Source: a virus. From it: 23,029 nucleotides of DNA. Position numbers and translations under genes: made by a program. The number at the start of each line of letters is the position of its first letter. Position 1 is the stretch's first letter. Under the pieces are notes generated by a model. That model searched no databases. It was not told the DNA's origin and was given only the letters and a program-made list of their open reading frames with translations. Shown in pieces: positions 1,143 to 22,897 of this stretch. The stretch lies in the IMG/VR virus record IMGVR_UViG_3300017782_000238, positions 1-23,029 of that record, one strand, 5' to 3'.

Positions 1143-1178
1143 TTGACAAAATGATACTGCTAGTATATAAATAGCAGT
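1143..1178 (+). promoter_or_regulatory. Promoter: sigma70-like -35/-10 overlapping a T4-type late box
   Basis: TTGACA (1143-1148), a 17-nt spacer, and TATAAA (1166-1171) form a near-consensus sigma70 promoter. The -10 is also part of TATAAATA (1166-1173), exactly the T4 late-promoter consensus. The ATG of the next gene lies at 1179, about where transcription would start, and no Shine-Dalgarno sequence precedes it, so the message may be leaderless. An inverted repeat (1154-1162 with 1172-1180) surrounds the -10 box. Confidence 0.7.
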
Positions 1179-1180
1179 AT
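1154..1180. repeat. 9-bp inverted repeat centred on the -10 box (operator-like or hairpin)
   Basis: ATACTGCTA (1154-1162) and TAGCAGTAT (1172-1180) are perfect reverse complements separated by nine bases that contain most of the -10/late box. The right arm runs into the start codon at 1179. As DNA this is an operator-like dyad. As RNA it is a hairpin that could end upstream transcripts, although no T-run follows. Confidence 0.6.
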
Positions 1181-2579
1181 GGCACTACTAAAAAAGACAG
1201 ACTTTTTTGAAGCAGGCAAAGAAAAGACTGCTTCTGCAGGAAAATATTCAGGCAAAACTAGAAAACAAATAATTCTAGAAAAGATAAAAAATAAAGAACC
1301 TTTTAGTATAGGTACCACAGCAGGTGGACCTAAACTTATGGGTACATCTTTAGAAGATAAATCTTTTCCGTTTATACTTTCTACAAAATCATCAGGTGAT
1401 ATAGCAATCACAAAAATATTCAAAGATCCAGACTTTGGTGGCGGTGCTGGTTCAGGTGGTGGTGCTGAAGATACAAAAATTACAGAATCAGGTCAATGTT
1501 ATTATACATCATTAGTTTTTAATATTATAAAAAGACCACTTAAAAAAACAGATTATACAACTGCTAATCTTAAAAAAGCAGCTAAGTTCGTACAAGCAAC
1601 AATCAAGTTAGAAGATTTTTTAAAAAAAGGGCCACAAGATTGGTTTGACAATGACATATACGGTAGAACAGCAAACCTAATCTATCAAAAGTATTCAAGA
1701 AAATTTAAAGGACCAGTTTATTGTCATAGAGGTTCTGCATTTATGAGTGATGTGTATGCAGCCAAAAAATCAGTTATGAAAACTGATAAATTTTCAGCAC
1801 CAGGATCATTCTCAGATGATAAATGGAATCCAGGTGATATATGGTTATCATCTTTACCACCCAATTCTAAACCTTTTAATAAGGCAACAACATGGGCAGA
1901 GTTAAATCAAATGGTATTAGAGAGTGCAGGTGAATTAAACACTAGTAGAGATACAACAACATTAGGAGTATCATTAAAGAAGTTAGGAGTATCAGGTAAA
2001 GTTGATACTTATAATAGTGCAAAAAGAAAACATAATGTCAATGTTAGATTTAAAAATTTCACATTTGGTAAATCAGGAGATTTTTTCAGTTCAATAGATG
2101 TGTATATAAGATTTGATGTTGCTGAAGTTCAGTTAAGAGCATTCAATAGTACAAGTGCATGGCAAGGTGAGATAAAAGGACTTGCGGCTGCAGGTGGTAA
2201 AATAGGTGGTGGTAATTTAAATTACTATCTAGAGAAACACGCTAAAAAATCAATAGGTTATCCTGGTGATAATAGGTCAAGAGGTACATCATGGAGCGAA
2301 ACGCCTGCGAATAAAGTAGATATAAACAAAATGTATGCTCTGTATGTTAAATTTAATAAATTACAAACAGCTAAAATACCAACAGTAAGTTTATCTGAAT
2401 TTAAAAAACGACTAAAAGAAAAAGGTGCTTCTTTTCAATTTTCAAAGAATATGTGTTTGATGTTCTTAAACTCTTTTTTAGAATCTACTCCGATCATTAA
2501 AAATAAAATATCTACTGAAATAGTAAGATATGCAGCTTCTAATACAGAAATCTCTAGTTTTTACATCAAAGTAAATTAA
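1179..2579 (+). CDS. Conserved marine-myovirus-type protein, function unknown
   Basis: A 466-aa, Lys- and Ser-rich soluble protein with no signal peptide or membrane segment. Features seen: a Gly-rich linker at about residues 87-97 (GGGAGSGGGAED), a stretch with CHRGSAFMSDVY, and a KWNPGDIW motif about 40 residues later. Aromatic-rich strands and a Gly-rich AAAGGKIGGGN patch follow. The KWNP-D-W block reminds me of proteins in other T4-like marine phages, but I cannot name a family. The first residues (KKTDFFEAGK) loosely resemble the capsid-targeting-like N-termini downstream. It has its own promoter with both sigma70 and late-type boxes. The start codon sits at the predicted transcription start with no ribosome site. 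Late expression suggests a virion or assembly role; this is inference. Confidence 0.5.
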   Translation: MALLKKTDFFEAGKEKTASAGKYSGKTRKQIILEKIKNKEPFSIGTTAGGPKLMGTSLEDKSFPFILSTKSSGDIAITKIFKDPDFGGGAGSGGGAEDTKITESGQCYYTSLVFNIIKRPLKKTDYTTANLKKAAKFVQATIKLEDFLKKGPQDWFDNDIYGRTANLIYQKYSRKFKGPVYCHRGSAFMSDVYAAKKSVMKTDKFSAPGSFSDDKWNPGDIWLSSLPPNSKPFNKATTWAELNQMVLESAGELNTSRDTTTLGVSLKKLGVSGKVDTYNSAKRKHNVNVRFKNFTFGKSGDFFSSIDVYIRFDVAEVQLRAFNSTSAWQGEIKGLAAAGGKIGGGNLNYYLEKHAKKSIGYPGDNRSRGTSWSETPANKVDINKMYALYVKFNKLQTAKIPTVSLSEFKKRLKEKGASFQFSKNMCLMFLNSFLESTPIIKNKISTEIVRYAASNTEISSFYIKVN

Positions 2580-2587
2580 CAAATTGC

Positions 2588-2629
2588 TTGACTATTATAA
2601 ATAATAATATATAATATAAATGGAAAGAG
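2588..2629 (+). promoter_or_regulatory. Promoter: sigma70-like plus late box, with ribosome site
   Basis: TTGACT (2588-2593), a 16-nt spacer and TATAAT (2610-2615) give a sigma70-like promoter. A perfect T4 late box TATAAATA lies at 2596-2603. GGAAAGAG at 2622-2629 is the ribosome site for the ATG at 2636. Early and late transcription could therefore start here from offset sites. Confidence 0.65.
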
Positions 2630-2635
2630 TGTTAA

Positions 2636-16735: not shown

Positions 16736-16743
16736 AATAAATA
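16736..16743 (+). promoter_or_regulatory. T4-type late box (AATAAATA) close to the start codon
   Basis: AATAAATA ends five bases before ATG 16749, the same spacing as TATAAATA to ATG 1179. Both sites share ATAAATA-NN-AGTATG. No ribosome site is visible between, so a leaderless late message is possible. Confidence 0.45.
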
Positions 16744-16748
16744 TAAGT

Positions 16749-17201
16749 ATGTCAGACCTAGAAAAACTTAAAACAGAAATAGCATTACTAAAGAAAGACG
16801 CTAAGACTGGTGAGCTCATTCATCAAAGATTAGAAATCGCTGTAGATAAACTCACAGAAATAACTGTATCACTCAAAGGTATGATTGCTCAACAACAAAC
16901 AAAGTTAGAAAGAGCAGAACAAACAGATGATGATATTTTTGTTACTTTAGAATCTCGAAGAAAAGAATGGGATACCGATCTCAAAGAATTACATTCTAGG
17001 ATTACTACAAATAGTAGAGAACTAAGAGAGCTACAATATCAATCAGAAACTAAATTACTCAACGAAATACGAATGGTAAGAACTCAATTATCTGAAAGAG
17101 TTGGTGTATTAGAGAAATGGCGTTGGGTTATTATTGGTGGTTCTATTATTATTGGACTCATGATGTCTAATCCTGATAGTCCGTTGTTTAAGATGTTTTA
17201 G
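16749..17201 (+). CDS. Coiled-coil protein with C-terminal membrane anchor
   Basis: A 150-aa protein. Residues 1-120 are charged heptad-like helix (MSDLEKLKTEIALLKKDAKT through SERVGVLEKW). A single membrane segment follows at about 124-140 (WVIIGGSIIIGLMMS), then a short PDSPLFKMF tail. This layout resembles XhlA-type haemolysin/holin-associated proteins and other tail-anchored phage proteins; no specific family is certain. It follows the spanin pair, so a lysis or envelope role fits. A late-type box (AATAAATA) lies five bases before the start codon and no Shine-Dalgarno sequence is seen. Confidence 0.6.
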   Translation: MSDLEKLKTEIALLKKDAKTGELIHQRLEIAVDKLTEITVSLKGMIAQQQTKLERAEQTDDDIFVTLESRRKEWDTDLKELHSRITTNSRELRELQYQSETKLLNEIRMVRTQLSERVGVLEKWRWVIIGGSIIIGLMMSNPDSPLFKMF

Positions 17202-17205
17202 TTGC

Positions 17206-17241
17206 TTGACTTTACCATTATATAGTGTTATAATGTGTTCA
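17206..17241 (+). promoter_or_regulatory. Strong sigma70-like promoter with extended -10
   Basis: TTGACT (17206-17211), a 17-nt spacer and TATAAT (17229-17234), with TG one base upstream (17226-17227), make an extended -10. The primase ATG at 17241 is seven bases after the last base of the -10, the usual start point of transcription. CATTATA/TATAATG (17216-17222 and 17229-17235) also form a 7-bp dyad over the -10. Confidence 0.8.
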
Positions 17242-18254
17242 TGTCATCTTTCATTGATATTAAGTTTCTCAATCTTCTATCTACCAGACTAGAAAAATTC
17301 AAAAGAAAATCAGACTTTCTCTATAACTTTAGATGTCCTCATTGTGGTGATTCTAAGAAATCATCTACAAAAGCAAGAGGTTTCGTTTATCGTAAAAAAT
17401 CAGATATGTTTTTCAAATGCCATAATTGTGGTGTGGGTCAGACATTAGGTAATCTAATTAAATTTTTAGATCCCACAATGCACAAAGAATATATCTTTGA
17501 AAGATTTAAAGAAGGTAAAACACAAGAAGAAAAACCAGAGTTTGATTTTACACCATCTAAAATTTTAAAAAAGAAATCTGCCTATGATAGAATATTAGAT
17601 GAGTTAATTAGTTTTGATAAATTAGTTACAACACATCCTGCAAAACAATTTGTTTATAAAAGATTAATACCAAAAGAACATTGGGATAAATTTTATTTTT
17701 GTCCTAAGTTCTATGAGTGGACTAATAGTATTGTACCTAATAAATTTCCTAGTTTAAGAGACGATCACCCTAGAGTAGTAATACCTTTCTTTGATAGAGA
17801 AGGTAAGTTTTTTGCTTTTCAAGGTCGTGCATTTGGTAAAGAAAAACCAAAGTATATTACAATTAAGTTTGACGAAACAAAACAAAAAATATATGGTATC
17901 GATAGATTAGATTTAAATAAACCTATTAAGATTACTGAAGGTCCTATTGATAGTTTATTCTTAGACAATGCTGTCGCACTTGCAGGTGCTGACGCAAATA
18001 TAAAAATTAACCACGAACAATGTACAATGATCTTTGATAATGAACCACGCAATCAAGAAATTGTAAATCGTATGATAAAGGCTGTTGATAAAAAATTTAA
18101 CTTGGTTGTGTGGCCAAAAACATTGAAATATAAAGATATTAATGATATAATTATTTCAGGAAAAACATCAACAGAGATTGAAACTATTATAAGTAATAAC
18201 ACATATTGCGGACTTACAGCACTACAACATATTAACAACTGGAAAGGTATTTAA
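17241..18254 (+). CDS. 61: DNA primase, T4 gp61 type
   Basis: A 337-aa protein from ATG 17241; the GTG at 17235 lies within or just next to the -10 box and is unlikely. An N-terminal zinc ribbon has CPHC (32-35) and CHNC (60-63). A TOPRIM-like core follows, with ITEGPIDSLF (231-240, E233 catalytic/metal) and MIFDNEPRN (263-271, D266), then KYKDINDIII (297-305). HPRVVIPFFD and FAFQGRAFG are usual strands before the TOPRIM. Size and motif order fit T4 gp61, which makes RNA primers for lagging-strand synthesis with the gp41 helicase; no helicase is in the window. It has its own strong promoter and appears to be leaderless. It is probably the first gene of the primase-nrdA-nrdB unit, since nrdA starts 5 nt after its stop. 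Confidence 0.85.
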   Translation: MSSFIDIKFLNLLSTRLEKFKRKSDFLYNFRCPHCGDSKKSSTKARGFVYRKKSDMFFKCHNCGVGQTLGNLIKFLDPTMHKEYIFERFKEGKTQEEKPEFDFTPSKILKKKSAYDRILDELISFDKLVTTHPAKQFVYKRLIPKEHWDKFYFCPKFYEWTNSIVPNKFPSLRDDHPRVVIPFFDREGKFFAFQGRAFGKEKPKYITIKFDETKQKIYGIDRLDLNKPIKITEGPIDSLFLDNAVALAGADANIKINHEQCTMIFDNEPRNQEIVNRMIKAVDKKFNLVVWPKTLKYKDINDIIISGKTSTEIETIISNNTYCGLTALQHINNWKGI

Positions 18255-22500: not shown

Positions 22501-22663
22501 AACAAAACTAAAGCATTTTCACGCCCAAGGTGTGTCAAAAGTGTTTCACATACTGAAACAAATCTAAATACTCTCAAAAACCCTTGATTTTATTGACTTT
22601 TTTAGACCATTTTTTTATGGAATAATGCTTGCAATATGACCAAATCTCTGATATATTATAGAT
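22501..22663 (+). other. Intergenic control region with hairpin and promoters
   Basis: This stretch has no ORF. It holds a perfect inverted repeat, TGTTTCA (22542-22548) and TGAAACA (22554-22560), a T-rich segment (22582-22617), a TTGACT at 22593-22598 with only a poor -10 (TATGGA, 22616-22621), and the better promoter at 22629-22657. The preceding 22288-22380 interval shows nothing clear. Confidence 0.5.
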
Positions 22664-22664
22664 A
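22629..22664 (+). promoter_or_regulatory. Sigma70-like promoter with extended -10, start codon at +1
   Basis: TTGCAA (22629-22634), a 17-nt spacer, and TATATT (22652-22657) preceded by TGA. The ATG at 22664 is seven bases after the -10, as for the primase gene, and has no ribosome site. Confidence 0.6.
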
Positions 22665-22897
22665 TGATTAAAAAAGAAAAATACAAAATGGTGTTCAAAA
22701 CCCATGACGGCGAGTGGCATACTCATTCTTTTTACAACCACAAAGAATGTGTAGCTTACAAAGATAAACTTCTTGACGCCTATGCCTGTTCTGATATTAA
22801 GATTTTTCACTATGACTTATCAGATAAAGTTGGTATTGCTCAATGTGTATTTAACGCAATTGGGTTAATTGATATATCAAAAGAGGTATACGCTTAA
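22664..22897 (+). CDS. 77-aa hypothetical protein
   Basis: A small soluble protein, MIKKEKYKMVFKTHDGEWHT and onward, His- and Lys-rich with two cysteines near the middle (KECVAY, DAYACSDI) and a third in AQCVF. A beta-hairpin start (YKMVFKTHDGEWHTHSF) is followed by a helix and KIFHYDLS. Its own promoter places the ATG at the predicted transcription start. The stop overlaps the next ATG by one base. It looks like a small early-type phage protein; no function is recognised. Confidence 0.55.
   Translation: MIKKEKYKMVFKTHDGEWHTHSFYNHKECVAYKDKLLDAYACSDIKIFHYDLSDKVGIAQCVFNAIGLIDISKEVYA

Follow-up and report, generated by a model that had tools for sequence, protein, structure and literature searches.

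Does the message of a phage DNA primase gene begin at its own start codon? The question is raised by the 23,029-nucleotide stretch of viral DNA analysed here (the window; IMG/VR record IMGVR_UViG_3300017782_000238), in which the primase ATG lies directly behind a sigma70-type promoter. An initial annotation, made from the sequence alone, described the primase message as leaderless, pointed to the same geometry at two further genes (1179 and 22664) and proposed a class of leaderless phage genes.

The primase promoter and start codon

The primase locus comprises the following features:

17206..17211, + strand: −35 element TTGACT of the primase promoter (5/6 consensus match)
17229..17234, + strand: −10 element TATAAT of the primase promoter, with TG just before it (6/6 consensus match)
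17235..17240, + strand: GTGTTC, the six bases separating the −10 element from the ATG, without a Shine-Dalgarno (SD) sequence
17241..18254, + strand: DNA primase, T4 gp61-like (PHROG 47 DNA primase, E value of 7e-83)

Read directly from the window, the site is TTGACT-N17-TATAAT-GTGTTC-ATG, with the ATG at 17241-17243. The hexamers match the consensus at 11 of 12 positions, and their 17-nt spacing falls within the 16 to 18 nt expected of a sigma70 promoter conserved as a unit. The pattern TTGACW-N17-TATAAT-N6-ATG occurs exactly once in the window and in none of 100 dinucleotide shuffles, which bears out the original description of a near-perfect promoter with the ATG right at the predicted RNA start. 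Because the stop codon (TAG) of the preceding gene lies at 17199-17201, the promoter occupies nearly all of the 39-nt gap between the two genes; no terminator was found in this gap and no SD-like sequence before the primase ATG. At sigma70 promoters, RNA starts approximately 7 bases past the last base of the −10 element, and by this usual geometry the A of the primase ATG is the predicted first base of the RNA.

In tblastn searches, the isolates nearest to the primase were the Pelagibacter phages HTVC008M (52% identity) and Mosig (49%), and further out came the OM43 phage Melnitz (47%) and cyanophages (approximately 45%). The gene content also parallels that of HTVC008M, including a deoxyribonucleotidase, a tail assembly chaperone, the primase and both ribonucleotide reductase subunits. 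Judged by these comparisons, the window, a 23-kb virus fragment, is part of a pelagimyophage whose closest isolate is HTVC008M, and since both the nearest isolates and the gene content match pelagiphages, the host is presumably SAR11 or another streamlined marine bacterium of this kind. Rfam and tRNA searches gave no matches in the window.

The ATG at 17241 appears to be the true start. The N-terminus MSS.ID or MS.ID is kept from this codon onward in relatives at 50-94% identity, which share no N-terminal extension upstream of it, and this conservation speaks against an internal start codon preceded by a ribosome site, the outcome that the initial annotation had named as fatal to its reading. 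The primase of cyanophage S-RIM8 aligns from the same residue, yet its start codon is TTG and its leader is longer. One in-frame GTG, at 17235, falls inside the six bases that precede the predicted RNA start, and its position is not conserved. As a side observation, the annotated primase starts of the Prochlorococcus phages P-RSM4 and Syn33 look truncated; the homology continues as far as a TTG start codon further upstream, which follows a TTGAC promoter.

Early promoters and their distance to the start codon in relatives

All 33 distinct primase upstream regions of the close clade carry TTGAC and TATAAT, and none has an SD sequence. Their −10-to-ATG gap is 6 nt in 8 cases, 7 nt in 17 and 8 nt in 8, which covers the whole set, and the middle of the spacer has drifted (36-76% column identity). 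A distant clade with 27 distinct upstream regions likewise keeps the promoter, mostly with TATATT as the −10 element, and lacks an SD sequence throughout (0/27), so that the absence of a ribosome site noted in the window extends to both clades. There the gap is mostly 10-13 nt, with two outliers of 26 and 29 nt, and it measures 11 nt in HTVC008M and 10 nt in Mosig. Because of this difference in gaps, the close clade is predicted to be leaderless and the distant clade to have a leader of 2-7 nt; a very short leader, rather than none, is likewise predicted for the HTVC008M primase.

The initial annotation had suggested searching for −10-to-ATG distances across the phage genome. We ran this search on 1678 non-redundant ATG starts collected from the window, its IMG/VR relatives, HTVC008M and Mosig. 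The distances peaked sharply at 6-8 nt and formed a two-peaked distribution, whose near group had lost SD sequences. TATAAT stood 6, 7 and 8 nt before the ATG of 26, 10 and 7 starts, respectively, compared with 1, 2 and 2 for the reversed motif; together these are 43 starts against 6 expected (Poisson P of approximately 6e-22 relative to the 20-79 nt baseline, a value that ignores the relatedness of the genomes). No TATAAT was found within 19 nt of an ATG in two cyanophages or at 3-10 nt in T4, and the 6-8 nt peak of Melnitz was small. Loose whole-genome promoter matching (up to 2 mismatches) blurred the signal, and stricter criteria were used instead. When a good −35 element was required, 118 strong promoters remained, 65 of them at 5-12 nt, 8 at 13-19 nt and 40 at 20-59 nt from the ATG. 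An SD-like sequence accompanied 1 of the 65 near promoters (5-12 nt) versus 29 of the 40 far ones (20-59 nt; Fisher P of approximately 9e-16). Reversed and complemented hexamers yielded 7 and 13 such 'promoters' against the 118, of which 0 and 1, respectively, were near. T4 gives no matches under the strict −35 filter and hence controls for the position of the motif but not for the distances of strong promoters. TATAWT abutting the ATG (0 nt; 15 starts in HTVC008M and 8 in Mosig) was left uncounted as a promoter, since the examples seen were AT-rich spacers linking an SD sequence to the ATG.

The near early promoters precede members of 18 protein families, and in 13 families the distance is 5-8 nt; the genes include the primase, two exonuclease families, UvsY and a PHROG 624 DNA-binding protein; the HTVC008M DNA polymerase has one at 12 nt. 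One exonuclease family holds both types, with a 6-nt gap and no SD sequence in a close relative versus 28-31 nt and AAGGA in HTVC008M and Mosig. Among long open reading frames behind near early promoters, 62 start with ATG and 1 with TTG. Orthologues share ancestry, and the promoter counts are therefore not independent, but many protein families are involved nonetheless. Collectively, these distances argue that pelagimyophages hold a genome-wide class of early genes, not the primase alone, for which leaderless transcription is predicted.

That such a pattern should arise by chance in an AT-rich genome deserves consideration, since TATA-like hexamers are abundant and loosened patterns in the window occur at chance level. 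Both for the primase promoter and for the wider class, we regard this explanation as refuted by the shuffles, by hexamers that are invariant across relatives, by reversed and complemented controls that come near zero and by the lack of any peak in the AT-rich T4 genome; it is possible for individual weak sites.

Late-type promoters and companion sites in the window

The same starts point to a second class, which the initial annotation had missed. Of the 1678 starts, 41 (1.3 expected) have ATAAATA, the core of the T4-type late promoter, at exactly 5 nt from the ATG, and the peak is sharp, with 0 starts at 4 nt and 2 at 6 nt. No ATAAATA was found at 4-9 nt before an ATG in two cyanophages or T4, where the motifs are mostly at 20-60 nt; in Melnitz, it stands 5 nt before 3 starts and 20-60 nt before 22. 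An SD sequence is present in 4 of 53 near late cases versus 33 of 51 far ones, and the near cases spread over 27 families. HTVC008M has near late promoters before genes for, among others, a baseplate tail tube cap, gp25 (baseplate wedge), the DNA end protector, a putative tape measure and a head-tail adaptor. In those HTVC008M late examples that we checked by eye, the start coincides with the ATG annotated in GenBank. Starts of long open reading frames behind near late promoters comprise 67 ATG and 5 GTG codons; non-AUG starts are poorly used on leaderless messages (PMC3616915), which fits the ATG preference of the near group. A late sigma factor of the gp55 type is annotated in HTVC008M and absent from the window, itself only a fragment. 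On these counts, a late class of predicted leaderless genes exists beside the early one.

The two peaks bear on a different reading, in which a very short leader (2-7 nt) is the rule and strictly leaderless genes are one end of the range, the rule being minimal spacing and not a 5′-terminal AUG. The distant-clade primases fit such a leader, having gaps of 10-13 nt and, just ahead of the ATG, a conserved TTGCT or GTGTT; the primase gaps of HTVC008M and Mosig fit it too. The commonest early gap is, however, exactly 6 nt and the commonest late one exactly 5 nt after ATAAATA, and from these values the A of the ATG is predicted to be position +1. We consider the short-leader reading a serious possibility that nevertheless falls well short of the leaderless one.

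Further sites in the window belong to one or the other class, and one is listed as a contrast:

1143..1148, + strand: TTGACA (6/6) upstream of the late-type promoter of the 1179 gene, conserved in the 91-100% relatives
1155..1179, + strand: inverted repeat TACTGCTA-N9-TAGCAGTA flanking the 1179 −10 element, its last base being the A of the ATG
1166..1173, + strand: TATAAATA, T4-type late promoter motif, 5 nt before ATG 1179
1179..2579, + strand: 466-aa protein, PHROG 1462, predicted leaderless
2588..2635, + strand: contrasting site TTGACT-N16-TATAAT with a 20-nt gap containing purine-rich GGAAAGAG, before ATG 2636
16736..16743, + strand: late-type motif AATAAATA (core ATAAATA at 16737..16743), 5 nt before ATG 16749
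16749..17201, + strand: gene upstream of the primase, PHROG 451 N-terminal part, predicted leaderless from the late promoter
22629..22657, + strand: weaker sigma70-type promoter TTGCAA-N17-TATATT (11/13 relatives)
22664..22897, + strand: 77-aa protein, predicted leaderless

The bases at 1179 and 22664 are as first described. The 1179 site reads TTGACA-N17-TATAAA (1166-1171), seven bases and the ATG; it thus shares the primase geometry with one extra base, as had been claimed, but not the promoter type, because TATAAATA is a late-type motif. We read the promoter as late-type, perhaps dual. In the 91% relatives, TTGACA-N17-TATAAATAGCAGT-ATG is kept with a drifting spacer; more distant relatives keep the promoter, but have an AAGGAG leader. 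The inverted repeat is kept in two relatives (L158 and L128) with one G-T-type change and could be an operator. At the corresponding place in L128 (18038-19123, reverse strand), TTGACA...TATATAAATAGCAGT-ATG precedes a protein with a different N-terminus, as if the gene had been swapped behind a fixed promoter.

The 22664 site consists of TTGCAA (22629-22634, 4/6), N17, TATATT (22652-22657, 5/6), six bases and the ATG. With the 3 mismatches needed to include it, the window has 7 matches against 5.1 ± 2.2 expected, and the presence of three sites in one window is therefore not itself significant. Hence, the argument from three cases, as initially made, was rejected, although the class it proposed stands on the distance peaks in relatives. 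Within the window the 22664 site is no better than chance and its case rests on conservation, which rescues the 1179 site as well. One relative (L152) has a different upstream sequence and still TATATT seven bases before the ATG, and another (L149) has a GAGAGG sequence in place of the promoter. We also observed that the approximately 70 non-coding bases at 22593-22663 are near-identical in relatives whose 77-aa protein shares only 66-70% identity, that is, they are more conserved than the gene downstream.

A fourth case had been overlooked, the gene at 16749, whose 5-nt late gap is shared by 8 of 14 family members. Both 1179 and 16749 thus have a late motif of the TATAAATA/NATAAATA type at the fixed distance, from which their RNA starts are predicted. 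PHROG 451 covers both the 16749-17201 gene and the primase, which suggests a fusion or joint annotation of the two in some phages.

The upstream gene also matters for how the primase is expressed. It lies on the same strand and ends 39 nt before the primase ATG with no terminator called between them, and most primase could come from a polycistronic readthrough message, translated without an SD sequence or by coupling, with the promoter real and the leaderless RNA minor. Starts without an SD sequence are common in the presumed host lineage; SD-like sequences precede 13.6% of 1113 SAR11 starts (1.2 Mb, three genomes) versus about half of those in the phages. Readthrough leaves unexplained why the gap is 6-8 nt in 33 of 33 upstream regions and why SD loss is confined to the near group, and the timing of the two genes may differ, because the upstream gene has a late-type motif and the primase an early-type promoter. 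We therefore consider readthrough an improbable main source of primase, although it could add a second primase message that does have a leader.

Interpretation and relation to known systems

What the relatives display directly is promoter conservation, fixed distances to the ATG, absence of SD sequences and almost exclusive use of ATG; from these we infer RNA starts at the ATG and leaderless translation. In our view, the primase very probably has its own strong sigma70 promoter and a leaderless message and is one of a genome-wide early and late class, its RNA start being placed by promoter geometry. The initial interpretation is thus largely supported and proves more general than stated. Host RNA polymerase would start the primase RNA at, or within approximately 2 bases of, the ATG, and ribosomes would recognise the 5′-terminal AUG without SD pairing, presumably by 70S-type leaderless initiation as on other near-group messages. 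Early genes would use sigma70 promoters with the ATG 6-8 nt past the −10 element and late genes T4-type ATAAATA promoters with the ATG 5 nt past the motif. The driver may be genome compaction, the genome being tightly packed and the host lineage itself sparing with SD sequences.

The comparison with SAR11 did not show that the geometry was copied from the host. In the 1.2 Mb of host DNA, TATANT at 5-6 nt showed a weak excess that did not stand out clearly from the reversed control, and exact TTGACW-N17-TATAAT was absent from either strand of five SAR11 genomes, compared with 6 matches to the reversed pattern. Mimicry is thus unsupported, and because the five genomes lack the exact promoter, the strong promoters are a phage feature; it is possible that the host avoids consensus promoters.

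Leaderless genes and both promoter types are already known, and what is new is that one phage group sets both its early and its late promoters on start codons. A TANNNT signal approximately 12 bp ahead of the start codon has served to detect leaderless genes in bacteria (Zheng et al. 2011, PMC3160421), and the primase resembles such genes in having the first T of TATAAT (17229) 12 bp upstream of the ATG (17241), no SD sequence and an ATG start. Unlike those genes of bacterial genomes, the present ones belong to a T4-like phage group, have full −35 elements and include a second, late-promoter class. The lambda cI message is leaderless, and leaderless mRNAs are translated by 70S ribosomes (reviewed in PMC9031893); the pelagimyophage near group shares with cI the predicted 5′-terminal AUG and the lack of an SD sequence, but whereas cI is one repressor gene in a temperate phage, dozens of protein families with replication and structural genes are involved here. 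T4-like cyanophages use early sigma70 and late NATAAATA promoters (PMC2984593), as does Melnitz (PMC9004378). The motifs are those of pelagimyophages, and the cyanophage primase also has a TTGAC promoter; the start codon, however, lies approximately 20-40 nt downstream in cyanophages, and mostly so in Melnitz, in contrast to the start-adjacent promoters of pelagimyophages. For gp25, Melnitz has TATAAATA and a leader with AGGAG as its SD sequence, whereas the pelagiphage gap is 5 nt after TATAAATA in HTVC008M and 8 nt in Mosig. Late-promoter prediction by cyanophage methods reportedly failed in pelagimyophages (PMC7029224), the same virus group as the window, and start-adjacent late promoters may explain this failure. 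We found no description of leaderless genes in pelagimyophages in the open-access literature searched.

A bolder extension is that a large part of the early and late programmes is leaderless and paired with a change of host ribosomes through bS21 that favours SD-independent initiation. The ribosomal protein bS21 is annotated in HTVC008M, and phage bS21 is reported to enter Escherichia coli ribosomes (PMC9976891). We hold the combined scenario to be unlikely, and a role of phage bS21 in leaderless initiation is speculative, bS21 being known here from the HTVC008M annotation.

If the leaderless reading is true, both T4-type promoter classes have shifted onto the start codon in the pelagimyophages, which are abundant ocean viruses, and transcription and translation begin there at the same point. 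Start-adjacent promoters would be a compact way of making protein that the tested cyanophages and T4 do not show. The reading would provide a promoter map for a group in which late-promoter prediction reportedly failed and a way to correct annotated start codons. Natural orthologues with and without leaders (the primase, gp25 and an exonuclease) would become available for studying leader loss, and a testable prediction would follow for SAR11 ribosomes, in a lineage where SD sequences appear rare.
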